Shown here piece by piece: positions 4,853-28,081 of a stretch of 33,110 nt of DNA. The stretch lies in NCBI GenBank assembly GCA_029243485.1, contig JAQWRY010000048.1, forward strand, positions 1 to 33,110, given 5' to 3'. The DNA is from Candidatus Binatia bacterium. Lineage in GTDB: Bacteria > Desulfobacterota > Binatia > UBA12015. The stretch's first letter is position 1. Every line of letters starts with the position of its first letter. The notes beneath the pieces were generated by a model. That model made no database searches and was not told the origin of the DNA. It worked only from the letters and a program-made list of their open reading frames with translations. The position numbers were made by a program, and so were the translations under genes.

Positions 4853-4864
4853 CACAATTCGCCC

Positions 4865-9911: not shown

Positions 9912-10024
9912 CAGATGCTCTCCGGGCGCAGACGAGTTGGAACGTCGTACGTCTGCTTCGAGCGGAAGGCGCTGCCTCTCGGGTGCGGTGGGCGTCGCAA
10001 GCCAACAGATTAGGCCGACCTAAT

Positions 10025-10352: not shown

Positions 10353-10562
10353 CGGGGCCCCCGGACGGCGGGCCACAGATGTCCAGAATATAGGCAGGTG
10401 CCGCGATTCTAGGCAGCTGGAGCGACGTCGGTCGAACCTGGCCGAAGGATTCGCCCTACCTGTGGGCGCTTGGGGTACCGGCCAGTCGGGCATCGTCTTT
10501 GCATTATTGGCACCTGCGAGCCGTCGATGACGACGGAACTCGATCCAAGGGAGACCGGTTAG

Positions 10563-11810: not shown

Positions 11811-11863
11811 GAACTCTCTGACTCGGGGCCTTACGACCCCGCTCAGCGCATTCGGTGCTGAAC

Positions 11864-11892
11864 CGCCCCGAGAGGCTTAGCCTCTCGGGGCG
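11864..11892 (+). terminator. rho-independent terminator after the porin gene
   Basis: A perfect 13-bp stem (CGCCCCGAGAGGC, 11864-11876) with a 3-nt loop TTA and the complementary arm at 11880-11892, followed by a T-rich run (TCGTTCGTTTG). It lies 54 bp after the porin stop codon. Confidence 0.85.
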
Positions 11893-11966
11893 TCGTTCGT
11901 TTGGGCGGCGGATCCCGCGCTGGCAAAGGCAACTACGATCCCGTAATCCACTGATCTCACTCACTG

Positions 11967-12050
11967 GCCGGAGTGGCGGAATTGGCAGACGCGCCGGACT
12001 CAAAATCCGGTTCGGGCAACCGAGTGTGGGTTCAAGTCCCACCTCCGGCA
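11967..12050 (+). tRNA. tRNA-Leu (anticodon CAA)
   Basis: 84 nt. The acceptor stem GCCGGAG/CTCCGGC, anticodon stem CCGGA/TCCGG around loop CTCAAAA (anticodon CAA), long variable arm typical of tRNA-Leu, and T arm GTGGG-TTCAAGT-CCCAC are all present. The discriminator is A and no CCA is encoded. Its last 53 nt (11998-12050) recur exactly at 13572-13624. Unlike that copy, this gene is not followed by the AAACCCGCG hairpin, which suggests that the DNA after it was inserted. Confidence 0.97.
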
Positions 12051-12138
12051 TTCGAAAGAGCGCGTTGGACGTCCGTCCGGCGAGACTGACACGCGGTCGC
12101 CTCGGTCACCACGAATCCCCGTCCAGATTCGTTCCGAG

Positions 12139-12795
12139 TCACGCAGAGCCGCGACCGGCGGCGAGACGAGCCAAAGTCGCGTGCAATCGCCCCAGGTACG
12201 AGACCGGCAGGGTCTCGGGGCCGCGCGGAGAAACCTCCGGCCAGCGGATCAGCTCCTCGTGCGGCACCCCCGCGTCGAAACGCGCACACAAATCTTCGGG
12301 GTCGAAGTCCACGCCGATCGAGTTGGTCGCGAAGTCCGGTCCGTACAGGAAGGCGTTCAGCTCCTCGGCGGTCGCGAAGTTGTCGACCTGAAGCTCGACA
12401 TGGTTTCCATCCGGATCGCCGTAGTACATCGACGTCGTACCACCGTGGTTGATGCACCACTCCGGCCGGATGTCGACGGCCGTCAGTCTGCGGTAGGTGT
12501 GGATCAGGTCGCCCAGACTCTCATACGAGAACGCCACGTGCTCGACGCATGCCACGAAGCCGGGACGGTCGAGCAAGCCGGGCATGTGCGCGATGGCGAC
12601 GCGGTGGTGCTCCTCGTCGTAGGTAAGGAAGGTGATCTGCTTCGTGGCGAAGGCAGTTTCAGCTTCGAGCACCGTCTCGTACCACTTCACCATCTCGTCG
12701 TAGCGACTCGTTCGCATCACGGCATGCGCGAGCTTCACCGGAGCGATCCGTCCACGCTCTCGCGCGGGCTTGGGTAGTTCGGTTTGTGGGATCAC
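12139..12795 (-). CDS. VOC-family metalloenzyme, glyoxalase / extradiol dioxygenase-like
   Basis: 218 residues from GTG 12795, with AAGGAGA upstream. Vicinal-oxygen-chelate fold: LAHAVMRTSRYDEMVKWYET (first metal His near residue 24), VEHVAFSYESLGDLI (second His) and YYGDPDGNHVELQVDNF (Glu ligand). The 2-His-1-Glu pattern fits type I extradiol ring-cleaving dioxygenases and related lyases or isomerases. The substrate is unknown. It is the last gene of a three-gene minus-strand unit enclosed between tRNA-Leu and the 53-bp copy of the tRNA 3' end, so it was probably carried in by that insertion. Confidence 0.85.
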   Translation of the reverse strand: MIPQTELPKPARERGRIAPVKLAHAVMRTSRYDEMVKWYETVLEAETAFATKQITFLTYDEEHHRVAIAHMPGLLDRPGFVACVEHVAFSYESLGDLIHTYRRLTAVDIRPEWCINHGGTTSMYYGDPDGNHVELQVDNFATAEELNAFLYGPDFATNSIGVDFDPEDLCARFDAGVPHEELIRWPEVSPRGPETLPVSYLGRLHATLARLAAGRGSA

Positions 12796-12850
12796 CTCCG
12801 AGTCTCCTTCGCGTCAAGAAATGGCCGCTTCGACACACCGATGACCGCGG

Positions 12851-13132
12851 CTACGGCAGGGCGGCCGACGGGACCTGCTGGTCCGACTCGGCCGGTGGAG
12901 GGCCACCCCAGATGACCATGTCGGGACAAAGGTCCGCGCCGCTGGGCCAAGAGAGTGCACCATCGGTCACGCGAACCTCTTGGAAGCGCTGCGGGTCCGC
13001 CGCGATCGTCTCGAACACGGGTCCCTGGAGCAGCGCCGAGAGATCACGCTCGATCGTCGTTCCGTCGGTCAACGTGAGCCGCACCCGGCAGCCTTCGAGT
13101 GGCTCCACGTCCCTAATGCGAAGAAGCGTCAT
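12851..13132 (-). CDS. DUF2442 family protein
   Basis: 93 residues from ATG 13132 with GAGGTGA just upstream; the frame is open to 13348 but that part overlaps the DUF4160 gene in another frame. Matches DUF2442 in its core: LRIRDVEPLEGCRVRLTLTD and IERDLSALLQGPVFETI, ending with an acidic/proline tail that includes LCPDMVIWGG. DUF2442 genes very often sit beside DUF4160 genes, as here (10-bp gap), and the pair has been suggested to be a toxin-antitoxin-like module; this is not proven. Confidence 0.85.
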   Translation of the reverse strand: MTLLRIRDVEPLEGCRVRLTLTDGTTIERDLSALLQGPVFETIAADPQRFQEVRVTDGALSWPSGADLCPDMVIWGGPPPAESDQQVPSAALP

Positions 13133-13142
13133 TGGTTCACCT

Positions 13143-13403
13143 CTACTCAAGCGGCTGGATGGGCTGCGGCAGCTCACCCGACCGGGCCAGTTCCCAGTCT
13201 CGGCGCAGCTCGTCTCGGTGAAGCACCGCCCACTCCAGAACGAGGGCGAGCGCACGCCTAGGCAACTCTCCCCGGAGGACGTCGAGAGTGTCAATGCGGA
13301 TGAGAGCCTCGTGCTCTTGATAGACCGCGTGGAAGTGCGCGGGCTCATGATCGTTGAAGAACATCCGGATGACGATCCCGAAGAATCGGCTCAACTCAGG
13401 CAT
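13143..13403 (-). CDS. DUF4160 family protein
   Basis: 86 residues starting MPELSRFFGIVIRMFFNDHE, followed by PAHFHAVYQEHEALIRIDTL and the helical RALALVLEWAVLHRDELRR. This is the standard DUF4160 sequence, with the conserved F-x-N-D-H-x-P-x-H-F-H pattern that looks like a metal or catalytic site (inference). It is the first gene of the DUF4160-DUF2442-VOC unit. Upstream (13404-13571) no gene is seen; a short direct repeat GTCAGCACT occurs twice near 13470-13487. Confidence 0.87.
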   Translation of the reverse strand: MPELSRFFGIVIRMFFNDHEPAHFHAVYQEHEALIRIDTLDVLRGELPRRALALVLEWAVLHRDELRRDWELARSGELPQPIQPLE

Positions 13404-13571
13404 CTCGAGATGGATCTACCGTCAAAGGTGCACTCGGTGCCAGGGGCGGTGGAAGCCGAACCATTCATGTCAGCACTTTGCGTCAGCACTCGATTTCAGG
13501 ACTAGTCGCCAATCTCGTAACCCCCTACCGATACTGAAGAATCATCGCACGTCACGACGCACTCGCTCTGC

Positions 13572-13624
13572 ACTCAAAATCCGGTTCGGGCAACCGAGTG
13601 TGGGTTCAAGTCCCACCTCCGGCA
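13572..13624 (+). repeat. tRNA-Leu 3'-end duplicate, att-like site
   Basis: 53 bases identical to 11998-12050 of the tRNA-Leu gene, starting one base into the anticodon-side boundary (ACTCAAAATCC) and ending at the discriminator base. Crossover at the anticodon loop with identity through the tRNA 3' end is the usual pattern of tyrosine-recombinase attachment in tRNA genes. It is followed by a terminator hairpin that would be the original downstream flank. No integrase lies between the two copies. Confidence 0.9.
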
Positions 13625-13629
13625 GTCGG

Positions 13630-13654
13630 AAACCCGCGTCCCGCGCGGGTTTTG
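13630..13654 (+). terminator. terminator-like hairpin after the tRNA-Leu remnant
   Basis: Stem AAACCCGCG (13630-13638), loop TCCCG, arm CGCGGGTTT (13644-13652), then TT. The same hairpin follows the tRNA tail in copies 2 (16046-16068) and 3 (with one G-U pair). It probably terminated the original tRNA-Leu transcript. Confidence 0.75.
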
Positions 13655-14131
13655 GAGTGCCAACGGGCGTTGAGGGCCCCCGGGGGGCCAGAGAAACCGG
13701 TCAACCAAGTGTGGGCCAATTGCCCACAACGGAACTCTCTGAGGAGGTCCTTGGAGAAGGTTCCCAGGACGACACGCAGAGGAAGGTACTTCCTTTGCTC
13801 TCCGTTGATCTCGAGGTCTAGATCCCGGCTACCCCTGCGATCCTCGGTCCCGAGGCCAAGGGAAATACCAAGGAAGGCGAGGACGAGTATCGGGTGGATA
13901 GGATCGAGATCTCGAACGCCACGTCGATGGGAAGACGGTCGATCGAACCCTTTCTCCTCCATCCGCTGGAGCTACCGAGATCTCTTCCACAGGGCTCGGT
14001 ATCCCGGCCCTTCCATGCGTCTGTATCGCGCCAAGACGACTCAGGAATCGGAAGGGCCAGCTTTCCGGACACGACGCCCGAGTCCATTCCAAGGTTGCGG
14101 CGCGCGCGCCCCACGACCTAGACTCGGGCAG

Positions 14132-15724
14132 ATGCTGCGCGTCCTCCTCCCCATCCCTCTGATCCTCCTCTTGTCTCCCGCGCTGGGGCATGCGGACGAC
14201 GCGGCGCTCGCGGCGTGCGGAGCGGCAAAGGTCCACGCCATGGCGCGAGCGTGCAGCGACCTGCTCTCGGCCGAGGCACGGTTACTCGCAACGGGAAACG
14301 CGGAAGGAAAAGTTCGACGACTCGCGAAGGTGCGTGGCCGAATCGTCGAGACGTGGGCGAAGGCCGAGGCGCAGGCACCGGATTCTCGGTGCGCCACCTT
14401 CACCGCGAGCCCTGACGGCGCGGTCGACTTCGTCGATTCTGTGGTGTCGGAGATCCTCTCGTCGGTGCCCGTCGCATCCTGTGGCGCGAAGCTCGGACGC
14501 CGCCTGCGCCGACACTGTCGCAACGCGGTCGAGCTGGAAGTGGACGAACTCCTCGCACCGGCGGGCGCGGCCGACGAGCGCACGAAGGTCATCGGAAGAA
14601 TTCGCACGCTGCTCTCACGGCGGTGGCCGGTCAAGGGCTGCGGGACTGGGCCCGACGCGAACGAGGTTACGCGCGCCTTGTTCCGCCTGGCGGGGGCTGC
14701 CGCCGGCCAGGGAACGACGCGGGGCATTCGCGAGCTCGCCGACCAGGTCGGGCTCTCCATAGGCGTCGCAATCGAGCCGGGGGAGGTCGCGACCGATCCG
14801 GACTACCAATCGGCGCTTGTTCGTGAGTCCAACTCGCTGACGGCAGAGAACGTGATGAAATGGGGCCCGACGCAGCCCGGACCGACGCAGTTCAGCTTCG
14901 CCGGCGCCGACCAGATCATGGCGTTGGCCGACGCGGAGAGGATGCGGGTTCGCGGGCACACCCTCGTGTGGGGGGCGCTCCAGCTCCCGTCATACGTGCA
15001 AAACGCATCGACCGCGGCCGAACTGCGCGGCTACATGTCCGACCACATCGCCGGGGTCATCGGCCAATACGCCGGCCGAATCGCGCAGTGGGACGTCGTG
15101 AACGAGCCGCTCAGGTCGACGGTCGACCCGGCGACTCCAGACGGGCTGGATGACAACATCTTCACGCAACTCATCGGCCCAGGTTACATAGCCGAGGCGC
15201 TTCACCTCGCGCGGGCCGCCGACCCGACCGCCGGGCTCTTCGTGAACGAGAATGGAATCGCGGTTCCGGGCCCCCGTCAAGACCGCTTCTACCAGCTCAT
15301 CGTCGACCTGCTTGCGGCTGGCGCGCCCCTGGACGGCGTTGGCCTCCAGGCGCACGTGGGCCTGACCCCGCTCTCGGCGTATCCCACCCGAGACGTAGTC
15401 GAGACGTCGGTGCGACGCTTCGCGGACCTCGGACTCGACGTCGAGATCACCGAGCTCGACGCGACGGTCCTGTTCCGTCCGCCGGACCTGGCGTTGGCGT
15501 TCGCGATCCAGGGGCAGGACTATCGCGCCTACGCGGACGGTTGCTTCGCCGTACCGCGCTGCACCGGAATCACGACCTGGGGCCTGAGTGATCAGTACAC
15601 GTGGCTCCGGACGTTCTTCGGCTTCGACGACTACCCGCTTCCGTTCGACGACTTCTGGAATCGCAAGCCGGCCTACTTCGGAATGCGCGGCTCGCTTCTC
15701 GGACGCCTGCTCGCGGACTCCTGA
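14132..15724 (+). CDS. secreted GH10 endo-1,4-beta-xylanase with N-terminal Cys-rich domain
   Basis: 530 residues from ATG 14132; the frame is open to 13598 but that part is repeat DNA. Signal peptide LLPIPLILLLSPALGHA (cleavage about residue 21). Residues about 22-190 form a helical, cysteine-containing region outside the catalytic domain. GH10 signatures follow: NSLTAENVMKWGPTQ, RVRGHTLVWGALQLP, QWDVVNEPLR with acid/base Glu325, FVNENGI, GVGLQAHVG, VEITELDATV with nucleophile Glu441, and TTWGLSDQYTW. It should cleave xylan backbones outside the cell or in the periplasm with retention of configuration. It is a single gene, and the flanks are repeat or insertion sequence remnants. The N-terminal domain is not a known carbohydrate-binding module that I recognise. 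Confidence 0.88.
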   Translation: MLRVLLPIPLILLLSPALGHADDAALAACGAAKVHAMARACSDLLSAEARLLATGNAEGKVRRLAKVRGRIVETWAKAEAQAPDSRCATFTASPDGAVDFVDSVVSEILSSVPVASCGAKLGRRLRRHCRNAVELEVDELLAPAGAADERTKVIGRIRTLLSRRWPVKGCGTGPDANEVTRALFRLAGAAAGQGTTRGIRELADQVGLSIGVAIEPGEVATDPDYQSALVRESNSLTAENVMKWGPTQPGPTQFSFAGADQIMALADAERMRVRGHTLVWGALQLPSYVQNASTAAELRGYMSDHIAGVIGQYAGRIAQWDVVNEPLRSTVDPATPDGLDDNIFTQLIGPGYIAEALHLARAADPTAGLFVNENGIAVPGPRQDRFYQLIVDLLAAGAPLDGVGLQAHVGLTPLSAYPTRDVVETSVRRFADLGLDVEITELDATVLFRPPDLALAFAIQGQDYRAYADGCFAVPRCTGITTWGLSDQYTWLRTFFGFDDYPLPFDDFWNRKPAYFGMRGSLLGRLLADS

Positions 15725-15923: not shown

Positions 15924-16320
15924 ATCTCTGGCCCCCCGGGGGCCAGGCTATGACCCACTGGGACACGCTCAGACACACTAGTCCCCGAGAAAACGTAGTC
16001 TTTTCAACCCGAGGTGTGGGTTCAAGTCCCACCTCCGGCAGTCGGAAACCCGCGTCCCGCGCGGGTTTTGGAGTACCAACGGGCGTTGAGGGCCAGCGGG
16101 GGGCCAGAGAAACTCTTCAACCGAAGGTGGGACAGTTGCCCACAACGGAGGTTGCTGAGGAGCTCCTTCGAGAACGACACGCAGAGGAAGGTACTTCCTT
16201 TCCCTCCGTTGATCTCGAGGGTCAGATCCCGGCTACCCCAGCGATTCAGTTCTCCGAGGCCAAGGGAAATACCAACGAAGGCCAGGACGGGGTATGCTGG
16301 GATGAGATCGAGGCCCCCGC
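15924..16320 (+). repeat. tRNA-Leu-tailed dispersed repeat, copy 2
   Basis: Begins with a 90-bp module shared only with copy 3: ATCTCTGGCCCCCCGGGGGC, GACACGCTCAGACACAC, ACGTAGTCTTTTCAACCCGA. Then come the last 27 nt of tRNA-Leu (16014-16040), the hairpin (16046-16068), and the body common to all three copies. Relative to copy 1 it has an 11-nt and a 1-nt deletion. The GC palindrome at its start is the inverted counterpart of the GGGGGGCCAGAGA word inside the body. The 16321-16570 stretch that follows holds no gene that I can support. Confidence 0.8.
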
Positions 16321-16570: not shown

Positions 16571-17125
16571 TTAGGGTAGCCCCGGAACGGGTCCTTGGAA
16601 GGAATCCTGGTTGTCGGTTCGGATCACGAGAGTCTCGTCGAACAGCTCGATGATCAAGGTATCCGTCGGCGTGTAGTCGACCAGACGCCAGGAGTCGGGA
16701 AGGGTCGGCTCGTCGACGGTGCGGGTCGCGTCCCGACCGTTGCGGAAGTAAGCGTCGCCCTCGGGCGAGACCAGGAGCAGGATCGGGCTCCCCGCCTCGA
16801 CGGTGTACTCGTGGTACTTGCGGACGCGCACCGCGGTCAACTCTCCGTCACCGCCGATCGGAACACCGATTTCGACCACGGTAGCCGCATGCAACCACAG
16901 AAAGCCGAACAGCTCCTCCAAGGTAAACTCTCCCTCTATCGCCTCGGGTGAACGAAGGAAGCGGCTCGAGATGCCGCCCGGGCCCGCGCCGCCGTCCTCT
17001 CGAGGCTGGTTCTTGATCCAGTTGTCGGGCAACTCGAGGGCATCGAATTCCTCGCGCGTGATATCCCCGGTGTTGACCCAGGCCTTGAGGTTTCCGTTGG
17101 GAAGGCGTTCGAGGATCTCCGGCAT
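16571..17125 (-). CDS. hypothetical protein
   Basis: 184 residues from ATG 17125 with no signal peptide or membrane segment. Recognisable stretches are TREEFDALELPDNWIKNQPR, a beta-rich domain (TVEAGSPILLLVSPEGDAYF) and a C-terminal YTPTDTLIIELFDETLVIRT strand pair. I recall similar 'TDNQDSFQGP' tails on exported proteins but know no function. A stop codon lies in frame just upstream, and the start overlaps the end of the fragment at 17120-17321. The protein may be the intact distal part of a once longer exported gene, or a complete small protein. Confidence is in coding, not in role. Confidence 0.55.
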   Translation of the reverse strand: MPEILERLPNGNLKAWVNTGDITREEFDALELPDNWIKNQPREDGGAGPGGISSRFLRSPEAIEGEFTLEELFGFLWLHAATVVEIGVPIGGDGELTAVRVRKYHEYTVEAGSPILLLVSPEGDAYFRNGRDATRTVDEPTLPDSWRLVDYTPTDTLIIELFDETLVIRTDNQDSFQGPVPGLP

Positions 17126-17321
17126 GCCCCCACGGGTCGGCGGAGAACGCGATCGTCTTGTTCATCGCGGCGATCTTGAACTGGTGGGGACCTCGAGAAT
17201 TCGGGTTTCCCGCGATCTCGAGCATGTCGCGGCGGCTGCGATAGCGCATCATGCCGACCATCGTCCATCGATCCGGGATGCCGAGGACCGCGAGAAAGCA
17301 CGAATGGAGTCGCTGCGTCAT
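17120..17321 (-). pseudogene. C-terminal fragment of a dimeric alpha/beta-barrel protein
   Basis: ATG 17321 starts MTQRLHSC, then RYRSRRDMLEIA, HQFKIAAMNKTIAFSADPW and GHAGDPR. The same order of motifs ends the membrane protein at 23029-23685 (RYRSRRDIMQIM, HSFKVAALEKTIAFPLDPW, AGDPR). The N-terminal two-thirds are missing, and the first codons with their ribosome site are nearly identical to the start of the dehalogenase gene at 18486, so the fragment appears to have gained a copied 5' leader. Confidence 0.65.
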
Positions 17322-17335
17322 GGAGTCTTCCCGAT
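17301..17335. repeat. leader direct repeat, copy 1
   Basis: The word CACGAATGGA-GTCGCTGCGTCATGGAGTC-TTCCCGA recurs at 18458-18497 with a 9-nt insertion (ACACAAGAA) and a one-base difference. Both copies contain a start codon and ribosome site on the minus strand, and the two copies bracket the dehalogenase gene at 17335-18486. Confidence 0.7.
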
Positions 17336-18486
17336 TAGTCCCGCATCCACTCGATGAGGCGGCGGGCGATGTCGGCGCCCTTGTCTTCTTGCAGGAAGTG
17401 GCCCGCATCGGGGTAGGCGTGATGAGGCTGGCCGACGGCACCGGGCACGGTGTCCCGCATCTCCCCCTGGGTAGCGTCACTCCCCAGGTTCAGGTCCAGC
17501 CGTCCCGCGATCGTGAGCAGCGGCTTCTCCCATGCGTCGAAGACGGCGCGGGCGGCGAGGTTGTCCGGCTCCTCGTTTACCGTGACGACGAGCGATGGGA
17601 ACGTGCGCGGCGCGGCCATGTAGACGTGCGCCGGGAACGGGGCATCGTAGGCCGCGAGCTCCGCGTCGCTGATCTCCGCCTCGACGGCCACGCGCATGAT
17701 GAGGCTGGGCCTGAAGTCTGGGTTCAAGAGAGAGTATCGGATCCACCGGCTGAAACAGACCGTCCGCGATTCCTGACAACCGGCCTGGCTCGGCACGGTC
17801 GGGTCGGGAACGATCGTGTCGGGAATCGTGAAGAGAGTCCGCATATCGAACGCGGCGGGAACCACGGGCAGCTGCGTGTTGGCGACGACGACGCGCGCGA
17901 ACCGCTCGGGCCGATCGCCGACGACCCGGAGCCCGATCAATCCGCCCCAGTCCTGACAGAACAGCGTGACGTCCTCGAGGCCGACGACGTCCATGAACTC
18001 CTTGATCCACTCGACGTGACGAAGGTACCGATACGTGTCGAGCGCAAGCGGCTTGTCGGACCTCCCCATCCCCACGTGGTCCACCGCGATCGCGCGGAAC
18101 CCGGCCGCGGCGAGCGACGGGATCATCTTTCGATAGAGATACGACCACGTCGGCTGGCCATGCAGCATCAAGACCACCGGTCCATCCCGGGGCCCCTCGT
18201 CGACGTAGTGCATCCGCAGACCGTCGACCTCCGCGTAGTGCGGCGGAAACGGGAAGTCGGGAAGATTCGCGAAGCGCTCGTCGGGCGTCCGAACGAACGG
18301 GACGCAGTCGTCGGTGTACCGAATCGTGGCTCCGGCCAAGTCGACGCCCGGAGGAAGCTCGGCCGGAGGGCAGCGCGGCTCTGTCGAACCATCGCCACAT
18401 GCCCCGGCCAGAGCGAGGAGAGCGAGGAGCAGAACGCGCATGCCTGTGTGGCGGCACGAATGGAACACAAGAAGTCGCTGCGTCAT
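17335..18486 (-). CDS. exported haloalkane dehalogenase-like alpha/beta hydrolase (HLD1)
   Basis: About 383 residues from ATG 18486 (GGGAG 5 nt upstream), or 368 from ATG 18441, which would begin MRVLLLALLALAGACGDG with a lipobox; either way it looks like a lipoprotein. Haloalkane dehalogenase signatures follow: LMLHGQPTWSYLYRKMIP (oxyanion region), FCQDWGGLIGLR with nucleophile Asp179 followed by a halide-binding Trp, TIAGRLDLNLG with a candidate acid, and DAGHFLQED with base His363. Such enzymes release halide from alkyl halides through an ester intermediate. Related hydrolases act on other esters or epoxides, so the substrate is open. It is divergent from the TetR gene and flanked by a direct repeat. 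Confidence 0.82.
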   Translation of the reverse strand: MTQRLLVFHSCRHTGMRVLLLALLALAGACGDGSTEPRCPPAELPPGVDLAGATIRYTDDCVPFVRTPDERFANLPDFPFPPHYAEVDGLRMHYVDEGPRDGPVVLMLHGQPTWSYLYRKMIPSLAAAGFRAIAVDHVGMGRSDKPLALDTYRYLRHVEWIKEFMDVVGLEDVTLFCQDWGGLIGLRVVGDRPERFARVVVANTQLPVVPAAFDMRTLFTIPDTIVPDPTVPSQAGCQESRTVCFSRWIRYSLLNPDFRPSLIMRVAVEAEISDAELAAYDAPFPAHVYMAAPRTFPSLVVTVNEEPDNLAARAVFDAWEKPLLTIAGRLDLNLGSDATQGEMRDTVPGAVGQPHHAYPDAGHFLQEDKGADIARRLIEWMRD

Positions 18487-18497
18487 GGAGTCTCCCG
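18458..18497. repeat. leader direct repeat, copy 2
   Basis: Second copy of the sequence at 17301-17335, holding the ribosome site and ATG (18486) of the HLD1 gene. It has an extra ACACAAGAA between the two halves. Confidence 0.7.
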
Positions 18498-18523
18498 AGG
18501 TGGTTTGGGGGCTGCACAGGTTC

Positions 18524-18539
18524 TGATACAGTGTTATCA
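18524..18539. promoter_or_regulatory. candidate TetR operator between HLD1 and the regulator gene
   Basis: TGATA-CAGTGT-TATCA, a 16-bp sequence with 5-bp perfect arms, lies 11 bp before the TetR GTG start and 38 bp before the HLD1 ATG. TetR regulators usually bind such a palindrome in the divergent intergenic region and repress both sides. The AT-rich surrounding (TTCTGATACAGTGTTATCAA) also offers -10-like sequence. Confidence 0.5.
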
Positions 18540-18549
18540 AATTAGTGCA

Positions 18550-19260
18550 GTGTCGCAAATTTCTGAAAATACCCCGTCTGGCCTGCGGGAGCGCAATATC
18601 GAAGCGCGTCGCCAGCAAATACTGAACGCGGCGCGCGCCCTGCTCAGTCGGGGTGGCCTCGCCGCGCTCTCGATGCGCAAGCTCGCCGAAGAGGCGTCGC
18701 TCAGCGTCAATACGCTCTACAATCTCTGGGGCACGCGCGAAGAGATCCTGCGCGCGCTCACCCTCGACGCTCGGGACCGGATGAAGGCGTCGCTCCCGAT
18801 CGACGCATCGCCCGACGACCCGATCGAACATTGCCGAACACTGACCCGGGCGACGGTCCGGGAGATGTGCCGCCAGCACGAACTCTTCCGGCCCATGATC
18901 CTGGCCTGGCTCGAGGGGGAGATCGCCGGGCGGCCGTCACCGATCGAGCCTGCGGCGCACGCGGTCGGAATGCTCTCGCAAGTCATCCAGAACGCCCGAG
19001 AGCGTGGCCTCCTCGACTGCCCAATGAAGTCCGAGCAGATCGCGTGGCAGATCCAACACGGCGCTCAGTTTGCGCAGGTTCAGTGGGCACTCGGCCGCAT
19101 CGACGATGCTCACTTCGAAGCACGAGTCCTCTACGGCGTGAACCTCGCGTTTCTCGGGATCGTCCACGAAGAACGTCGGCCGGAGATCCGTACCAAGCTC
19201 AAGGGCCTCGAGCGGAAGCTCCGGATGTTGCCCGTCGGAACCGCGGGAAAGACCAAATGA
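18550..19260 (+). CDS. TetR/AcrR family transcriptional regulator
   Basis: About 236 residues from GTG 18550; no better start lies downstream and the frame upstream is antisense to HLD1. The N-terminal DNA-binding domain is clear: ERNIEARRQQILNAARALLS, then the helix-turn-helix SMRKLAEEASLSVNTLYNLW with GTREEILRAL. The C-terminal ligand domain is helical and typical in length. It probably senses a small hydrophobic molecule and represses the cluster; the 16-bp palindrome next to its start is the likely site. Its stop overlaps the next start (ATGA), so it is transcribed with the DUF1330-like and dehalogenase genes. Confidence 0.9.
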   Translation: MSQISENTPSGLRERNIEARRQQILNAARALLSRGGLAALSMRKLAEEASLSVNTLYNLWGTREEILRALTLDARDRMKASLPIDASPDDPIEHCRTLTRATVREMCRQHELFRPMILAWLEGEIAGRPSPIEPAAHAVGMLSQVIQNARERGLLDCPMKSEQIAWQIQHGAQFAQVQWALGRIDDAHFEARVLYGVNLAFLGIVHEERRPEIRTKLKGLERKLRMLPVGTAGKTK

Positions 19261-20138
19261 GCGCCGACGCCTTCTCGGCGTTTCCGGACGGTGCGCCTGT
19301 CGCCCTCCTCGACCTCGTCAAAACGAAGAGCCCGGACACGCGTCGTGCCTTCGTCGCGTCGGTCGAGCGGCTCGCCGCGGAGGCCGGTGGTCGCGTGATG
19401 CTCGCAAACGTTCCAATCGCCCCGATGATCGTACCCGACGAGGAGGCCAGGAGATCGGATGACGCCATAGGCCTACTCGTCGTCACCCAATACCCGACAA
19501 GGCAGGCGGGCCAGATCGCTATCGCGAAGAGGAACGATCAGGGCACCGAGCTCTCCAATGACGAGGTTCGAACCTACGCGGCACAACCGGTAGGACGCAT
19601 CGAGTCCTGGATCGGCCGAACCCTGCCCTACACGCTCGGTCTGCTGAGGCGCGAGCCCGTACCCAAGATCGATGGCGCGGAGGCGCTCGACGCGATGATC
19701 GGGCGCGCCCTGGTTCTAGGGGAACAGCCGGATGAAACACGCTGGGCCAGATTGGCAGAGCGGGCGGGCGACCGACCGATCTGGATGCTGAACTTCCTCG
19801 AGTTCGCGAAGACCGCCGTCTACGCGGGCGACGCGCAGGACACCGCCCCGTCCGCCCCGATTTCAGGCGCCCGCGCCTATCGGCTCTATGGAAGCGGCAT
19901 GATCAGTTCCCTTGCCGCCGTGGGGGGACGCGTTGCCTGGTCGGGCTCTAGGATCGGCCAACTCGCGGGCCCCGATGATGGCCCGTGGCACCAGGTCGCG
20001 ATCGCCTTCTACCCATCGGCGGCCGCCATGATGACGATGCTGGCCCAGCCAAAATACCGGGCGGCGCACGTCCACCGCGACGCGGCTCTGGCACGCACCC
20101 GGCTACTCGCCACCCAACCGATCGAGAGACGGGCATGA
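19257..20138 (+). CDS. DUF1330-like dimeric alpha/beta-barrel protein, two-domain
   Basis: 293 residues, start ATG overlapping the TetR stop by 4 bp. The C-terminal half matches the DUF1330-type ferredoxin-like fold: RPIWMLNFLEFAKTAVYAG, SGARAYRLYGSGMISSLAAV, HQVAIAFYPSAAAMMTMLA and YRAAHVHRDAALARTRLLAT. The N-terminal half has a related pattern (VALLDLVKTKSPDTRRAFVA, IGLLVVTQYPTRQ), so it is probably a tandem duplication within one chain. DUF1330 proteins lack a settled function; some relatives are monooxygenase-like. Its place between TetR and the dehalogenases suggests a role in the same pathway. No signal peptide. Confidence 0.7.
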   Translation: MSADAFSAFPDGAPVALLDLVKTKSPDTRRAFVASVERLAAEAGGRVMLANVPIAPMIVPDEEARRSDDAIGLLVVTQYPTRQAGQIAIAKRNDQGTELSNDEVRTYAAQPVGRIESWIGRTLPYTLGLLRREPVPKIDGAEALDAMIGRALVLGEQPDETRWARLAERAGDRPIWMLNFLEFAKTAVYAGDAQDTAPSAPISGARAYRLYGSGMISSLAAVGGRVAWSGSRIGQLAGPDDGPWHQVAIAFYPSAAAMMTMLAQPKYRAAHVHRDAALARTRLLATQPIERRA

Positions 20139-21214
20139 GCCGGGCGCGACTCCGAAAGAAGAACACTCGAATGACCGCACGGTTGGTTGCGCTGATCGCA
20201 CTCTTCTCATGCGTTACCGCCCCGCACGCCGAGGAGATCAGGCCGGGTGTCCTGCGTACGCCTGAGGCTCGCTTCGTCGATCTTGAAGGGTTCCCCTTCG
20301 ACGCGCACTACATGGAGATCGGTGGGATGCGCGTCCACTATCTGGACGAAGGCCCGAGGGATGGAGAGCCGATTCTTCTGATCCACGGGGAGCCCACCTG
20401 GAGCTACCTCTTCCGCAAGATGATCCCCATCCTGGTCGAGGCCGGCTACCGCGTCGTGGCGCCCGACCTGGTGGGCTTCGGCAAGTCCGACAAGTACGCG
20501 GACCAAGCCGCCTACAGCTACGCGATGCAGGTGGAGTCCATGCGCGCGTTCGTGAACCGACTCGACCTTCGCGGAGTGACCTTCTTCGGTCAGGACTGGG
20601 GCGGCTTGATCGGCCTGCGCGTGGTTGCCGCCGAGCCGGCCCGATTCTCACGTGTCGTGGTGTCCAACACGGCTCTCGTTTCGGCGGGAGGTGTGGCCGG
20701 AGCCGTGGGCTATCCACTCTTCAAGGCCCTGATCTGGTGGCTCGGCCCGATCACGCTCGAGGAGCTGCAGACGGACATCACCTTCCCCCGGTGGGTTGCC
20801 TACAGCCAGAACGTTCCGGACCTGCCCATCGGCGATGTCATGGTGATGTTGAACGATGGCGAGGAGCACCTGCGCACAGCTTACGAGGCGCCCTTTCCGG
20901 ACCGAAGCTACAAGGCGGCCGCGCACATCATGCCCTACCTGGTGCCCTCGCAGCTGCGGGAGAACGAAGTGGCCTGGCAGACGGTGTTCGACAAGTGGGA
21001 CAAGCCGTTCCTGGTCGCCTTTACCGATGAGGACCCGCTCACCTCGGCAGGCGAGGCGGTTTTTCTCGAGCGCGTCCCCACGGCGCAAAAGGTGACGATC
21101 CGTGGCGCGGGCCACTTCGTGCAGGAAGATGCCGGCCCGGAGCTCGCGAAGCTGATGATCGACTTCATGCAGGACCGTCCCTTACCGACGGGAATCTCCG
21201 TCGAGCAGGATTGA
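20135..21214 (+). CDS. exported haloalkane dehalogenase, DhlA-type motif (HLD2)
   Basis: 359 residues, ATG overlapping the previous stop by 4 bp (a second ATG at 20171 is possible). Signal peptide MTARLVALIALFSCVTAPHA with cleavage before EEI, unusual for dehalogenases, which are mostly cytoplasmic. Motifs: LLIHGEPTWSYLFRKMIP, the same HGEPTWSYL seen in Xanthobacter DhlA, then APDLVGFGKSDK, FGQDWGGLIG with nucleophile Asp154 and Trp155, FTDEDPLTS with a candidate acid, and RGAGHFVQED with base His327. The cap domain lies in between. This resembles subfamily HLD-I, which hydrolyses short chloro- and bromoalkanes. The exact substrate is unknown. Middle gene of the coupled operon. Confidence 0.87.
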   Translation: MSRARLRKKNTRMTARLVALIALFSCVTAPHAEEIRPGVLRTPEARFVDLEGFPFDAHYMEIGGMRVHYLDEGPRDGEPILLIHGEPTWSYLFRKMIPILVEAGYRVVAPDLVGFGKSDKYADQAAYSYAMQVESMRAFVNRLDLRGVTFFGQDWGGLIGLRVVAAEPARFSRVVVSNTALVSAGGVAGAVGYPLFKALIWWLGPITLEELQTDITFPRWVAYSQNVPDLPIGDVMVMLNDGEEHLRTAYEAPFPDRSYKAAAHIMPYLVPSQLRENEVAWQTVFDKWDKPFLVAFTDEDPLTSAGEAVFLERVPTAQKVTIRGAGHFVQEDAGPELAKLMIDFMQDRPLPTGISVEQD

Positions 21215-21230
21215 AGGCGGAGAGACAGCC

Positions 21231-22295
21231 TTGAAGAAGCGAGTTCTGATTTCTCTGGCGATCCTCTTCGTCGCCGCGCTCGTCTTCGCAGCCAGGATCA
21301 CGCAGGACGGCGAGCGTATCGTTCCACGGGGAGATGGAACCGTCGCGTTGGATGCCGGCGACTTCGAAGCCTTCCCACTGCCGGACTACGCGGCGAAGTA
21401 CTTGCCCGACGGATACGAGAGCTACTTCGTCGAGGTGGAACCGGGGATCAAGGTGCACGTCCTCGAAGTGGGATCCGGCCTCCCCCTACTCCTCCAGCAC
21501 GGCAACCCGACCTCGGGCTTCCTCTACCGAAAGGTGGTGGAACAGCTGCCGACCGATCGAGTCCGCGTCATCCTGCCGACGTTGGTCGGCCTGGGGTTCT
21601 CGAGCAAGGTCCCGGCGAGCGAGCACACGCTCGACAATCACATCGGCTGGATTCACGGCGTCCTCGAGCAGTTGCAGTTGACCGAGGTCGTCTTCGCGGG
21701 ACAGGACTGGGGTGGGCCCATCGGCATGGGGGCTCTCGCGCGCTCGCCCCATCTTCTGAAGGGGATCGTCGTGCTGAACACCTTCTTCGATGCCGTAGCC
21801 GAAGAGGGAGACCTCTCTCCTGGCCATGCCATCGCCAGGAGGCCGGTCGTCGGCGAACTCCTCATCGAGACCCTTGGTCTGATCTTCAGAAACCTCCCGA
21901 ACACTCAGGGCGATCCCGAGTCCCTTCCGGCCGATGTCTTGGACCTGTACCGCAGGCCCGTCGTCGCGAGCGGCAATGGCAAGGCACCGCTCGCGATGAT
22001 GCGCATGGTGCCCGACGGGCCAGATCACCCGACCACACGGGCGATGAGGGTGATCGAACAGTACGTCCGCGGCTTGAAGCTTCCTGCGGAGATCGTGTGG
22101 GGAGCGAAGGACCCGATTCTGGCTGGGCAACTGCCTGCCATGAGGCGGCATTTCCCCGATGCTCCGATCACCGAAACGGAAGCTGGCCACTTCCTCCAAG
22201 AAGAGGTACCGGTCGAAATCGCCGCGGCCCTGATGCGAGTCGGGGATCAGGTTCGCCTCGAGGGCCTGCAGGAACAGGAAAGGGTAGAGAATTGA
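21231..22295 (+). CDS. haloalkane dehalogenase-like alpha/beta hydrolase, HGNPTS type (HLD3)
   Basis: 354 residues from TTG 21231 with GGAGAG upstream. The N-terminus KKRVLISLAILFVAALVFAA is a signal peptide or membrane anchor. Motifs: LLLQHGNPTSGFLYRKVV with the Asn that in HLD-II enzymes (DhaA, LinB) stabilises halide, then LVGLGFSSK, FAGQDWGGPIGM with nucleophile Asp159, GAKDPILAG with a candidate acid, and ETEAGHFLQEE with base His320. So the operon pairs one HLD-I-like and one HLD-II-like enzyme. It could also be a related hydrolase that does not act on halides. It ends in ATTGA, overlapping the next gene's TTG start. Confidence 0.82.
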   Translation: MKKRVLISLAILFVAALVFAARITQDGERIVPRGDGTVALDAGDFEAFPLPDYAAKYLPDGYESYFVEVEPGIKVHVLEVGSGLPLLLQHGNPTSGFLYRKVVEQLPTDRVRVILPTLVGLGFSSKVPASEHTLDNHIGWIHGVLEQLQLTEVVFAGQDWGGPIGMGALARSPHLLKGIVVLNTFFDAVAEEGDLSPGHAIARRPVVGELLIETLGLIFRNLPNTQGDPESLPADVLDLYRRPVVASGNGKAPLAMMRMVPDGPDHPTTRAMRVIEQYVRGLKLPAEIVWGAKDPILAGQLPAMRRHFPDAPITETEAGHFLQEEVPVEIAAALMRVGDQVRLEGLQEQERVEN

Positions 22296-22987
22296 CCGCC
22301 ACTAGCCGACTCTGCGTTGCCGCTCTTGCGACCTTCATTCTGACGGCGTGTGGTTCCGGGGCGACGACCGGCGATTCCGAGACCTCTGCAGGAATCGAAT
22401 CCTCGTTCACTCTCAAGATGCTCAGGAGCACCGGCGAAAACCCTTTCGCTCAGCTGGCCTACGAATGTGATGAGTGTTCTTTCGCGCAGCATGCCTCCGT
22501 CGAGCCGCCTTCGGGTTGGACGAGAGCCCCGGCTCAGGTGATTCTTCCCATCGGCGAGCTCCACAGCACCCCCTCCGCTGACGGGTTCCCCAGCTCCGTG
22601 GACTTCGTCCCCGAAATTCCCGGAGACGACTTCCAGGTGATCGCCAAGACCATCGACGGCAGGATCGTCGAAGCCGGCGAAGACGGGATCGTGGCCGTGG
22701 TCCAGGTCATGCGAGATACCAGCTTTCTCTTCCCAGCCGAGACCCGAGTACACGAACTCACCGACCCCGAAGGGAGTGTCTTCGTTCTGTTCGCCTTCGA
22801 GGTCGAGTCGGCGGATTTCACGAGCCCGGTCTTCCAGGATGCCGACGCTCTGATGGGTTATCCCCGGCCTACGGGTTGGACCTATTCCACGCGCATTCTA
22901 GACGAAGACTTGAGGATGAACCCCGGCGGCGTCGCCACAGTGCTCGCGATTCGCGCAGAGGTCGATTCGACCTGGGAGTTGCGTTAG
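22292..22987 (+). CDS. hypothetical lipoprotein of the dehalogenase operon
   Basis: 231 residues, TTG start overlapping the previous stop by 4 bp. LCVAALATFILTACGSG is a lipoprotein signal with lipobox LTAC. The mature part begins with a low-complexity Gly/Ser/Thr linker and then a domain with a CDEC pair (YECDECSFAQHA), no transmembrane segment, and strand-rich sequence (DGIVAVVQVMRDTSFLFPAE, GSVFVLFAFEVES). I do not recognise a family. By position it could be a partner or substrate-presenting protein of the exported hydrolases (inference from context). Unlike typical solute-binding proteins it is small. Confidence 0.6.
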   Translation: MTATSRLCVAALATFILTACGSGATTGDSETSAGIESSFTLKMLRSTGENPFAQLAYECDECSFAQHASVEPPSGWTRAPAQVILPIGELHSTPSADGFPSSVDFVPEIPGDDFQVIAKTIDGRIVEAGEDGIVAVVQVMRDTSFLFPAETRVHELTDPEGSVFVLFAFEVESADFTSPVFQDADALMGYPRPTGWTYSTRILDEDLRMNPGGVATVLAIRAEVDSTWELR

Positions 22988-23028
22988 TGCCTCGCCCGAC
23001 TTCGGCTCGAGTCGATCAGGAGCAGCAC

Positions 23029-23685
23029 GTGGCCAAAGACCATCCATCGAGCGGAAAGGGACTCTCGCGAGCCTGGGCAATCCTCGCGATCGTCTACGCG
23101 ATCTTCTTCTACTGGTACACCTCGTTCGGTGGCCCACTCAGCGACGAAGAGATCGCGCACTACACCGAGGTACTCGCCAGTGCGGCGACCACGGACGCAA
23201 GCAGGTCACGCTGGATCAGCTTCATGAAAAGCGATACGGGCGACGACTGGGCCATGTGGGTTGCGGTCGATCTCTTCGAAACGCCCAAGCAGGTGAAGGG
23301 CGTCGAACCCGGCGATACCGCGGAAGAAGTCGTCAATCGCTACTCCGAACCGTTCTTCCGCATGGCGATGAGGCGTGCGTCCCATCCCGTCATGATGGGA
23401 GTCGCCGCCAACCCCGCCCTCGACATCTGGGGGATCCAAGACGGCGAGAGCTGGGACTCGGGTCTATTGGTCCGCTACCGGAGCCGACGCGACATCATGC
23501 AGATCATGGAAGCGATGACGACTTCCGGCTCCGACATCCACTCCTTCAAGGTTGCCGCACTCGAGAAGACGATCGCGTTCCCGCTCGACCCCTGGTACCA
23601 GGCCGGAGATCCTCGCCTCCTGCTCGCCCTGGTCTTCATTGTGGTGGGACTGGCGCTGCAGCTACGCCACAACGCGCGAGCCTAG
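23029..23685 (+). CDS. membrane-anchored protein of DUF1330-like fold
   Basis: 218 residues from GTG 23029 (AGGAG 6 nt upstream). A membrane helix at the N-terminus (AWAILAIVYAIFFYWYTSFG) and another at the C-terminus (LLLALVFIVVGLALQLRH) enclose a soluble domain with WAMWVAVDLFE, RASHPVMMGVAANPALDIW, LVRYRSRRDIMQIMEAM and HSFKVAALEKTIAFPLDPW, a pattern like the ferredoxin-like dimeric barrel of the DUF1330 protein earlier in the operon. It closes the dehalogenase run on this strand. A truncated relative lies at 17120-17321. Function unknown; placement suggests an envelope complex with the exported hydrolases. Confidence 0.65.
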   Translation: MAKDHPSSGKGLSRAWAILAIVYAIFFYWYTSFGGPLSDEEIAHYTEVLASAATTDASRSRWISFMKSDTGDDWAMWVAVDLFETPKQVKGVEPGDTAEEVVNRYSEPFFRMAMRRASHPVMMGVAANPALDIWGIQDGESWDSGLLVRYRSRRDIMQIMEAMTTSGSDIHSFKVAALEKTIAFPLDPWYQAGDPRLLLALVFIVVGLALQLRHNARA

Positions 23686-23975
23686 TCGCGGAGCCTCCAG
23701 TAGCCTGGACGACGTCGGAGGTGTGCGACGGCGATCACGACCAGATCATCTCCCTCTGCGCGGTAGATCACGGCATACGGAAAGCCGCGCACGATGACCC
23801 TTCTCAGCCGCTCGCCGAACGGTCGGCCGCTGTCGGGGAACTCGGCGACCCGCTCGATCGCCGTCCGAACCGCGGAAAGGAAATCGGAACCAAGCCCGTC
23901 CGCCTGCTGCGAGTAGTAGCGGACGGCTTCGAGGAACTCCGACTCCGCATCCGGATGGAATGCGACGCTCTTCAA
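23682..23975 (-). CDS. RelE/ParE family toxin
   Basis: 97 residues: MKSVAFHPDAESEFLEAVRY, AVRTAIERVAEFPDSGRPFG, RVIVRGFPYAVIYRAEGDDL, VVIAVAHLRRRPGYWRLRD. This is the plasmid-stabilisation RelE/ParE fold, with the closing H-x-R-R-x-P-x-Y-W signature. Members cleave mRNA on the ribosome or poison gyrase. It starts inside the stop of the upstream antitoxin gene (4-bp overlap), the typical type II arrangement. Its stop overlaps the 3' end of the convergent membrane protein gene. Confidence 0.9.
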   Translation of the reverse strand: MKSVAFHPDAESEFLEAVRYYSQQADGLGSDFLSAVRTAIERVAEFPDSGRPFGERLRRVIVRGFPYAVIYRAEGDDLVVIAVAHLRRRPGYWRLRD

Positions 23976-24202
23976 CGGGTCGCTTGGCTGGCCTTCTCGA
24001 AGACGTCCGCAGCAGGAACGCTCCCCACTTTCGCAGAATCGAGTTCGTCGAGTCTGCGCTCCGCCTCTTCCAGCCAGAGCCGATCAGCCGCAACGTCGGG
24101 CTCTTCGTCCAGGCTGGCGATGAGCGTTTCCGCCAATCTCGCGCGAGCCCTCACGGGGAGCTTCAGTGCGTCATCCTGTAGCTTGCGAAGGGGGTCCGCC
24201 AC
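23972..24202 (-). CDS. antitoxin, addiction-module component family
   Basis: 76 residues from GTG 24202. Matches the short addiction-module antitoxins that accompany RelE/ParE: LPVRARARLAETLIASLDEE, LWLEEAERRLDELDSAKVGS, VPAADVFEKASQATR. It is acidic and helical and should bind the toxin and autoregulate. An alternative longer frame to 24400 reads into repeat copy 3 and is not real coding. The module lies next to the repeat copy, in accessory DNA. Confidence 0.87.
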   Translation of the reverse strand: MADPLRKLQDDALKLPVRARARLAETLIASLDEEPDVAADRLWLEEAERRLDELDSAKVGSVPAADVFEKASQATR

Positions 24203-24293
24203 GTAGTCAGAGTTATCACGAGGACGAAGTTGCCGCCTACCCCCGAGAGCGAAGGTATGTCGGCGATGACATGTTCGGCTGGCGTCGAACCGG

Positions 24294-24668
24294 ATCTCTG
24301 GCCCCCCGGGGGCCAGGCTATGACCCGCTGGGACACGCTCAGACACACCGGCCCCGAAAAACGTAGTCTTTTCAACCCGAGGTGTGGGTTCAAGTCCCAC
24401 CTCCGGCAGTCGGAAACCTGCGTCCCGCGCGGGTTTCCGCGTACCAACGCTCGTTGAGGGCCAGCGGGGGGCCAGAGAAATCTTCAGCCGGGTGTGGGAC
24501 AGATGCCCGCACCGGAGGTCTCTGAGGAGGTCCCTGGAGAACGTTCCGAGGACGACACGCGGAGGAAGGTACTTCCTTTGCCTTCCGTTGATCTCGAGTA
24601 CTCGGCGGCTACTACCCCAGCGATCCAGTTCTTCGAGACCAACGGAGATACTAAGGGAGGCCAGAGGG
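24294..24668 (+). repeat. tRNA-Leu-tailed dispersed repeat, copy 3
   Basis: Same organisation as copy 2: ATCTCTGG plus the GC palindrome (24294-24315), GACACGCTCAGACACAC, ACGTAGTCTTTTCAACCCGA, then the last 27 nt of tRNA-Leu (24382-24408), the hairpin, and the body ending near 24668. Its end runs into the 3' part of the PCRVLDTR pseudogene, supplying that gene's stop (24651-24653). Relative to copy 1, one base is missing near the TTTCTCTGG word. Confidence 0.8.
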
Positions 24669-27137: not shown

Positions 27138-27244
27138 TTGTACGAATTGAATTCCGGTTTGACAGGAAACACGCCCGCCCCTTTTGACCCAACCCCCTTC
27201 TAGCCGGCAACTCCAAACCTGCCGCCCGACGGCTACGCCGCGGC

Positions 27245-27337
27245 CGCCTGCACCCGAAAACGGGACCTCGCTCCAGGCTTCGCAGTCGCCGCTACCCGTC
27301 GACCCGGGCAAATAGGCCGTTCATGTTTCCTACCACC
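27245..27337 (-). repeat. 93-bp repeat, copy B (inverted)
   Basis: Reverse complement differs from copies A and D by three bases. Starts GGTGGTAGGAAACATGAACG and contains CCCG-TTTT-CGGG. It lies precisely where the transposase reading frame is lost, so it probably interrupted the transposase gene. Confidence 0.85.
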
Positions 27338-28081
27338 AGAATGAGGTAACGTTTGCCAAGCAAGAAACCGTCGAACCCACCGGTAAGGTGCCTCGCCATG
27401 TTCCTCATCCACGCTTCGCCCGGCTGGCATGTGATGCCGGCGATGTGAACTTTGCGCGTGCTCAGCTCCATCACGAACAGCACCGAGTATCGCACCAACC
27501 CGCCAAGCGTGACGACCTCGACGGTGAAGAAGTCCATGGCAGCGAGAACCTCCCAGTGGGCCTTGAGGAAGGTCTTCCACGACATCTTCTTGCGTCGCTC
27601 GGGCGCGGGTTCGATTCCATGATCTGCCAGGATCGTCGCAACGGTGGTCCGACCGATCTCGTGACCCAGGCCGCGCATGACGTCGCGCAGGCGCGTAGTC
27701 GCCCCAGCCGGGATTGTCGCAGGCGAGCTGGACCACCAGGGCCGCAGTCTCTGGCGGCTTTGGAGGTCGACCCGGCCCACGCCGTGCGCTGCCGTCGTAC
27801 TTCTTGGCCAGCAGCCTTCTGTACCAGCGCAGGATCGTGTCCGGCGTGACGACGCCGGCGAACTCTTGCAGCAGCTTGCGTCCGAGGAGCTTCCCCTTGG
27901 CCGCGAGGCGGCGGCGTTGTTCATCGGTGAAGCGGATGCGTCGACCGCCGAGCTTCCGGTCGAGCTGCTCGCGCAGGACGCGATTCTCCTCGATCAGATA
28001 CGCGATGATGTCTTGCTGTCGGCGATTCACGAACCCGGCGAAGGTCAGGAGAAGGAAGTGCAGTGCAGTGGGCGGCAGCAT
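27338..28081 (-). pseudogene. rve-type IS transposase, frameshifted and truncated
   Basis: ATG 28081. N-terminus [76 protein letters not shown] and [10 protein letters not shown] is the usual helix-turn-helix front end. After DNPGWG (about 27715) the frame shifts to [20 protein letters not shown], then [20 protein letters not shown], which holds the first catalytic Asp, and [20 protein letters not shown]. At LLGKRYLI the expected HDRD with the second Asp is replaced by the 93-bp repeat. The second Asp and the Glu are lost, so it cannot transpose. A C-terminal end of the same kind lies at 15773-15905. Confidence 0.85.

Follow-up and report, generated by a model that had tools for sequence, protein, structure and literature searches.

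Three dehalogenase-type hydrolases with export features in a gene cluster of an uncultured Binatia bacterium

The window analysed here, a contig of 33,110 nucleotides taken in its entirety (JAQWRY010000048.1, our G000:C48) from the 6.55 Mb, 88-contig genome GCA_029243485.1 of a Candidatus Binatia bacterium, carries a cluster of genes for three haloalkane dehalogenase (HLD)-type hydrolases, HLD_A, HLD_C and HLD_D, together with a TetR-family regulator and several accessory proteins. Judging from the sequences, the cell envelope of this uncultured bacterium may be a site at which halogenated compounds are degraded. Genomes are labelled G and loci L below; 145 relative genomes were compared. The plus-strand run starts at 18550 with the regulator (18550..19260; PF00440, E 2.8e-11) and continues with DUF1330_B (19257..20138), which has a C-terminal DUF1330 domain (PF07045), HLD_C (20135..21214), HLD_D (21231..22295), Lipo_E (22292..22987), a lipoprotein of unassigned family, and TM_F (22987..23685), in which a DUF1330-type domain is flanked by two hydrophobic helices. 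The 4-bp overlaps between neighbours described in an earlier, sequence-only reading of this DNA are found at three gene pairs (TetR/DUF1330_B, 19257-19260; DUF1330_B/HLD_C, 20135-20138; HLD_D/Lipo_E, 22292-22295), while HLD_C and HLD_D are 16 bp apart and Lipo_E and TM_F overlap by 1 bp. A minus-strand run diverges from the gap before the TetR gene and consists of HLD_A (17335..18441), a truncated copy of TM_F with the RYRSRRDM motif (17106..17331) and up184 (16571..17125), a member of a 184-residue family with an invariant C-terminal SFQGP motif and no Pfam or NCBIfam match. The three hydrolases lie where the earlier reading put them and carry the motifs it quoted; the interval it gave, 17335-23685, is right as far as it goes and leaves out up184 and the TM_F remnant. 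A ParE-type toxin (23682..23975, minus strand; PF05016, E 1.2e-13) and its antitoxin partner (23972..24205, minus strand; PF09720, E 3.3e-12) form the right edge of the cluster.

The divergent gap is 108 bp long, or 63 bp if an earlier start of HLD_A is used. It holds a weak candidate TetR site, the short palindrome TGATACAGTGTTATCA (18524..18539), which has one match against 0.02 expected in shuffled sequence, for a pattern picked after the sequence had been viewed. The repeat finder reported no inverted repeat at these positions, which counts against the candidate, and a promoter scan of the divergent region found none. An AT-rich block of the region is partly common to a second locus, L059, where the TetR gene (77% identity) also remains with the cluster genes, as the earlier reading of a TetR-associated set would lead one to expect. 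From its position, control of the cluster by TetR is plausible. By eye, the bases upstream of the TM_F remnant (17310-17335) and of HLD_A (18475-18500) are alike and look as if one start region had been copied onto the other. The G+C content at third codon positions is 0.80 in the cluster and 0.83 in five other genes of the window; with values this close, no recent foreign composition is seen.

HLD_A and HLD_C belong to subfamily HLD-I. Both score well above the cut-off of 265 bits on the NCBIfam 'haloalkane dehalogenase' model NF002043 (348 and 345 bits, E 4.5e-103 or better), and their closest solved structures are HLD-I enzymes. The HLD-I pentad, Asp179, Trp180, Trp248, Asp331 and His363, is invariant in 12 of 12 aligned rows that include both proteins; these HLD_A numbers follow P0001, which uses the alternative start 18486. 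The cap tryptophan of HLD_A aligns with that of 4mj3, 6f9o and 5esr. The earlier claim of HLD-I-like enzymes with export features is thus borne out for two proteins, by full pentad and by family score, and their family membership makes it quite likely that both dehalogenate by the Asp-ester mechanism. One recent triplication as the origin of the three enzymes was considered and rejected, as the tree places HLD_A, HLD_C and HLD_D in three lineages.

HLD_D had been read as HLD-II-like, an assignment that does not survive. In HLD-II enzymes the catalytic acid is a glutamate after strand 6; at that point HLD_D has VVLNT, with no acidic residue, and its acid is Asp294 after strand 7. Asn92, Asp159, Trp160, Asp294 and His320, an HLD-III pentad, are invariant in all 27 rows of an alignment made of the window and 26 of 28 loci found elsewhere (L061 and L085 were left out). 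Both halide-binding residues, one of the points on which the earlier reading had proposed to be checked, are therefore present in every row. In L061 an apparent fusion of HLD_D was rejected, since the stretch of frame beyond the gene looks by eye like the following gene read out of frame. Three NCBIfam HLD models match each of the 27 rows, with scores for HLD_D of 128.5, 118.3 and 110.1 bits against cut-offs of 265, 241 and 466. The predicted structure has a mean predicted local distance difference test score (pLDDT) of 85.8, with parts of the cap (207-214 and 223-225) under 50; the best 50 of its 1628 matches in the PDB (E <= 0.001) are all haloalkane dehalogenases, ancestors or HaloTag derivatives, headed by 2xt0 (E 1.4e-18). 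A profile of the family matches the HLD-III structure 8ckp (E 4e-23) less well than several HLD-I and ancestral entries, among them the HLD-I structure 5esr (E 5.9e-31). The pentad corresponds to that of the 8ckp enzyme, DhmeA, given as N63, D129, W130, D258 and H286 (PMC10503415). From its family, HLD_D has about an even chance of dehalogenating through an Asp-ester, and it may also cleave lactones or esters.

The genes around HLD_D elsewhere bear on this last point. At 6 of the 28 loci, HLD_D is followed on its own strand by a gene for a flavin monooxygenase-like protein, at distances of 45-1027 bp. Two of these genes are cut by the contig end and the other four carry FxGxxxHxxxW[PD], the type I Baeyer-Villiger pattern; one alphaproteobacterial and one gammaproteobacterial version are only 34% identical, and the one checked, in L062, has a Pfam FMO-like match. 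Such genes would suit an enzyme, HLD_D and perhaps the others as well, that in the cell does not dehalogenate but cleaves an oxygenase product (an ester, a lactone or a beta-lactone), its halide site being ancestral. A reaction of this kind is on record in the subfamily: PMC10503415 places OleB, a beta-lactone decarboxylase, in HLD-III. Set against it are the halide-binding residues, both kept in all 27 rows, and the fact that neither the window cluster (searched with Pfam and NCBIfam) nor L059 (by eye) showed a recognisable monooxygenase of this type. Moreover, the predicted periplasmic orientation of HLD_D would set it apart from the monooxygenases, whose expected place is the cytosol. Ester or lactone cleavage seems an unlikely function, if one with some footing. 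A sulfatase-like gene (by eye) ends 25-33 bp upstream of HLD_D in five loci, four of them from SAR86, with a CxPSR motif in three of the three genes checked, and DUF3604 genes lie near HLD_D in 5 of the 28 loci. Taken together, the neighbours fit the degradation of complex organics without pointing to one substrate.

Each of the three hydrolases carries a feature of export, as the earlier reading had it: a lipobox in HLD_A, a signal peptide in HLD_C and an N-terminal anchor in HLD_D. These features were judged by eye and by hydropathy. HLD_A, translated from 18441 as a protein of 368 residues, has the lipobox LAGAC (MRVLLLALLALAGAC). Its relatives in G031, G068 and G073 also have a lipobox and group with it in the tree, with support of 96/79, slightly under the program's star. 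The signal peptide of HLD_C has a PHA|EE-type site and is kept in the L059 orthologue; that orthologue has a tryptophan in place of the possible lipobox cysteine, so processing by signal peptidase I is likelier. HLD_D begins with a single hydrophobic helix (19-residue mean hydropathy 2.66), which is seen by eye in 27 of the 27 aligned rows and reaches a hydropathy of at least 2.1 in 26. A single helix followed by an ITRDGE-type linker, conserved in the aligned rows, makes an uncleaved anchor likelier than a signal peptide, and positively charged residues before the helix suggest that the catalytic domain is periplasmic. TM_F has a hydrophobic helix at either end of its DUF1330-type domain and Lipo_E a lipobox (LTAC, by eye), whereas no export feature was seen, by the same means, in DUF1330_B or TetR. 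Export does not extend to all linked homologues. Outside the window, 12 HLD places lie near TM_F or DUF1330; one of these enzymes is a lipoprotein (G031), two could not be judged (G010, G011) and nine have no export signal. As most of the linked enzymes are unsignalled, export is a property of particular lineages.

Scanned against genome contigs, HLD_D was found at 28 loci with 59-80% identity over the best segment, in metagenome-assembled genomes (MAGs) of Myxococcota, in SAR86, Haliea and other gammaproteobacteria, in sphingomonads and other alphaproteobacteria and in Qipengyuania, among them the named strain Qipengyuania xiapuensis 1NDW9. The cluster has a counterpart in L059, from the Myxococcota isolate ANT-51 (a MAG), which has five of the six plus-strand genes at 66-80% identity: besides TetR and HLD_D there are DUF1330_B (66%), TM_F (75%) and HLD_C (78%). 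The order there is TetR, a second DUF1330-like gene (named by eye; it has no Pfam match), DUF1330_B, TM_F, DUF3604, HLD_C and HLD_D. Thus the search for co-occurrence proposed earlier recovers the core set a second time, and the fixed six-gene order that was looked for is not conserved. The HLD_C-HLD_D block is collinear between the two, with 79% DNA identity over 2.0 kb. HLD_A was not seen in L059, where only about 220 bp of contig precede the TetR frame, and Lipo_E has at most a weak 31% match there, 1.4 kb downstream. In L063 and L065, TM_F lies near HLD_D and there is no separate HLD_C; at the other 25 loci, for some of which the sequence is short, neither TM_F nor a separate HLD_C was seen, and L084 has a 33% DUF1330 match. 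In the genome of a more distant relative, at L144 (G068:C121), three adjacent HLD-type hydrolases and a nearby epoxide-hydrolase-like one span 6615-14785; three of the four have a lipobox by eye, forming a second cluster of exported hydrolases.

The accessory proteins were followed in the same way. DUF1330_B barely passes PF07045 (24.3 against 23 bits), yet its family profile matches the RPA0582 structures 3dca and 3hhl at E 3e-45. TM_F has no Pfam match, falling short of the PF07045 gathering score, and in the PDB it matches 3dca weakly (E 0.24). The family profiles of TM_F and DUF1330_B do align (hhalign 97.8%, E 7.7e-13), and together with the two hydrophobic helices of TM_F this supports the membrane DUF1330-like protein proposed earlier. 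The TM_F remnant is 51% identical to TM_F over residues 147-211 and forms the inverted-repeat pair I4 with 23538-23615. In G031 (L143:655-2355) and G068 (L144:9782-11482), a single lipoprotein frame of 566 residues joins an HLD_A-like enzyme to an up184 domain, which marks up184 as an accessory domain without a Pfam match. A further lipoprotein, at L143:2416-4284, has DUF1330-like and up184-like parts, with PF07045 at E 0.026. The one PDB match of the up184 profile covers 30 positions (E 0.0029) and was attributed to chance, and an AlphaFold model made from the single sequence is unreliable (pLDDT 57). Lipo_E has 10 places in 7 of the 145 genomes. In L113 (G008:C57, 10136-14503), up184, an HLD and a Lipo_E relative lie on the same strand within 4.4 kb, a hint that Lipo_E is also part of the wider gene set.

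Linkage was counted within 6 kb over the 145 genomes, with the window contig left out and random placement within each genome as the expectation. Among 78 HLD places, TM_F is near six (0.12 expected), DUF1330 near six (0.27) and up184 near five (0.05). Seen from the other side, six of nine up184 places are near an HLD (0.05 expected; two of the six are one place in G031), or 7 of 10 with the window included (0.06 expected). The link between TM_F and DUF1330 is weaker, at 2 of 28 against 0.11. The up184-HLD fusion is stronger evidence than any such pairwise count. DUF3604 is part of the gene run of L059, and in G008:C46 a DUF3604 gene and an HLD gene overlap; the family is nominally above chance near TM_F (7 of 29, 1.67 expected) and DUF1330 (6 of 35, 1.15 expected), in a rough test with at least 77 typed DUF3604 places, the first 35 DUF1330 rows and neighbours hand-picked beforehand. 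DUF3604 (PF12228; 2936-4855, minus strand, in the window) is multiplied in these genomes, with 76 first-look candidates in that of the window, 72 in G001 and none in 14 controls, 8 per genome having been scored.

The cluster and its toxin-antitoxin pair lie between direct repeats of about 370 bp (15924..16320 and 24294..24664, plus strand, 85% identical). Both include the T-arm and the 3' acceptor end of the tRNA-Leu (CAA) gene at 11967..12050 (plus strand), the likely source of the repeat core. A further copy is found at 13594-13885. The copies stand head to tail, each with a hairpin-like stretch behind the tRNA-Leu(CAA) 3' end, at spacings of 1.6, 2.4 and 8.4 kb, and the genes between them differ: a glyoxalase, a GH10 xylanase and the dehalogenase cluster. 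Single-strand folding of the repeats gave z-scores of -1.2 to -2.0, and Rfam matched only tRNA in the window. A 207-base repeat query has 38 matches in the sister genome G001, at least nine of which begin less than 300 bp from a contig start, and 7, 2 and 1 in G000, G003 and G002, respectively; the loci L059-L086 all lack the repeat. In L216, genes that look by eye like a toxin-antitoxin pair (4832-5550, minus strand) stand directly before a tRNA-Leu-type repeat, as the pair at 23682-24205(-) does in the window. As to the integrase that an integron or tRNA-island cassette would have near its repeats, the six Phage_integrase matches in the own genome, whose assembly may be incomplete, include none on the repeat-bearing contigs C48, C87, C44 and C62. 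The series resembles a cassette array that has no integrase close by, and it suggests exchangeable units at the tRNA-Leu site; mobility of this kind would explain the sporadic occurrence of the cluster. Elsewhere in the window, four repeats of about 100 bp in both orientations, 75-97% alike (27237-27339, 30439-30550, 31630-31740 and 31910-32013), lie near a degenerate transposase-like frame.

Such surroundings also raise the question of whether the cluster is a chance collection, in which unrelated catabolic genes came to rest on a mobile island with no pathway in common. The flanking repeats, the toxin-antitoxin pair at the edge and the truncated TM_F copy would suit this, as would a gene order unlike that of L059 and the descent of the enzymes from three lineages. 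Accident does not readily account for five genes lying together in L059, with HLD_C and HLD_D collinear, nor for the frequency with which up184 is near an HLD or fused to one, and a chance assembly is held to be quite unlikely.

The interpretation that is preferred, if at somewhat less than even probability, is an envelope module for the dehalogenation of lipophilic organohalogens, carried as island cargo. In this scheme two divergent operons around TetR would give rise to three separately evolved HLD-fold enzymes, all of them extracytoplasmic: a lipoprotein (HLD_A), a periplasmic protein (HLD_C) and one held by its anchor in the inner membrane (HLD_D). In each, the nucleophilic aspartate would attack the halogenated carbon of a lipophilic compound, and the ester intermediate would be hydrolysed with the His-Asp pair, releasing halide and a proton outside the cytoplasm. 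Binding or scaffolding is the part assumed for the DUF1330-type and up184 proteins, and TetR is assumed to sense substrate or product; the roles given to DUF1330, up184 and Lipo_E are guesses. The set would travel as cargo of the island bounded by the tRNA-Leu-derived repeats. A bolder version, more doubtful, sees here a new type of extracytoplasmic dehalogenation, in which the anchored HLD_D family, represented in marine-type Myxococcota, SAR86, Haliea and sphingomonad records, was joined in one lineage by HLD-I enzymes, one a lipoprotein and one periplasmic, and also by membrane proteins of the DUF1330 type and up184 domains that would bind lipophilic organohalogens, or present them, at the envelope, all exchanged as tRNA-Leu-repeat cargo.

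Several observations weigh against these proposals. The nine linked HLDs without a signal begin near the catalytic core, so that export cannot be a general rule; all six HLD-TM_F cases come from one family and three genera, and the four of them with a judgeable start show no export signal. The exact gene order was found in no other genome searched, and the set is sporadic, since among the 145 genomes HLD_D was detected at E <= 1e-40 only in that of the window (up to 14 candidates scored per genome). HLD_D stays under every HLD family cut-off, and OleB is a reminder that its subfamily houses other chemistry; low dehalogenase activity is also attributed to HLD-III enzymes (PMC10503415). A link between DUF3604 and HLDs as a general rule was not upheld (6 observed against 2.99 expected at 79 HLD places), and its P of 0.08, like the other linkage P values, treats genomes as independent, which they are not; the link is not significant because DUF3604 is so hugely multiplied in these genomes. 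Dehalogenation, the substrate class, the partner roles, control by TetR and mobility are, moreover, all deduced from genes and their arrangement.

The enzymes might also protect against a bioactive halogenated or epoxide compound, or make one, rather than feed the cell. An envelope location and a TetR regulator would suit detoxification, and the related cluster in L144 has additional hydrolases, of which one shows, by eye, a motif like that of epoxide hydrolases; among the proteins of the cluster itself, however, no biosynthetic or efflux genes were recognised with Pfam or NCBIfam, and this role is considered improbable. Turning back to the envelope module, dehalogenation outside the cytoplasm would, if true, spare the cell interior the acid and halide and could act on compounds whose size or greasiness prevents import. 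HLDs are widespread in organisms not recorded as degraders of synthetic organohalogens, and this has been taken to suggest natural halogenated substrates (PMC6299022). Macroalgal metagenomes are rich in HLD genes and hydrolytic dehalogenases are noted for the Myxococcota order UBA9160 (PMC10919026), the same order is among the dominant MAG orders of Mariana Trench dehalogenation microcosms (PMC12750322), and an HLD appears in a table of M. paratuberculosis proteins (PMC6313528). The conserved anchored family around HLD_D, with its recurring neighbours, is a concrete place to seek the natural reaction of the least studied subfamily.

The cluster is real, and its composition is a variant on known enzyme families. 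That the composition is unusual, as first proposed, is supported. A literature search of titles and abstract starts, subscription papers lying outside it, returned among the matches listed neither a membrane-anchored or lipoprotein natural HLD nor a set of this kind. HLD_A and HLD_C resemble the HLD-I enzymes DmrA (4mj3), DpcA (6f9o), DccA (5esr), DppA (2xt0) and DhlA (1b6g) in pentad, family score and best matches. They differ from them in the lipobox of HLD_A and the signal peptide of HLD_C, and in extra residues before the cap tryptophan, which an unsignalled L147 protein likewise has; HLD_A has in addition four cysteines beyond those of the lipobox and the FCQDW motif, and two of its relatives are fused to up184. 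HLD_D shares the Asn-Trp halide pair and Asp-His-Asp triad of the HLD-III enzymes DhmeA (8CKP), DmbC, DrbA and OleB and departs from them in its conserved membrane anchor and ITRDGE-type linker; its assignment rests on pentad and profile rather than tree placement, and HLD-I structures score better. Compared with the DUF1330 family (PF07045; RPA0582, 3dca/3hhl), DUF1330_B passes the Pfam cut-off and TM_F is a distant profile relative, distinguished by a domain set between two hydrophobic helices and an invariant RYRSRRD motif. The island setting resembles tRNA-associated islands (tycheposons and integron-like arrays), in which repeats of a tRNA 3' end bound cargo and a toxin-antitoxin pair, although the repeats of the window have no adjacent tyrosine recombinase. 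Finally, LinB, an HLD-II enzyme of Sphingobium/Sphingomonas, was in 1999 reportedly located by Nagata et al. in the periplasmic space without molecular processing, an HLD outside the cytoplasm like those proposed here. Given this precedent, extracytoplasmic dehalogenation as such is not new; LinB is a single HLD-II enzyme, whereas the present cluster brings together a lipobox-bearing enzyme, one with a signal peptide and one with a membrane anchor.

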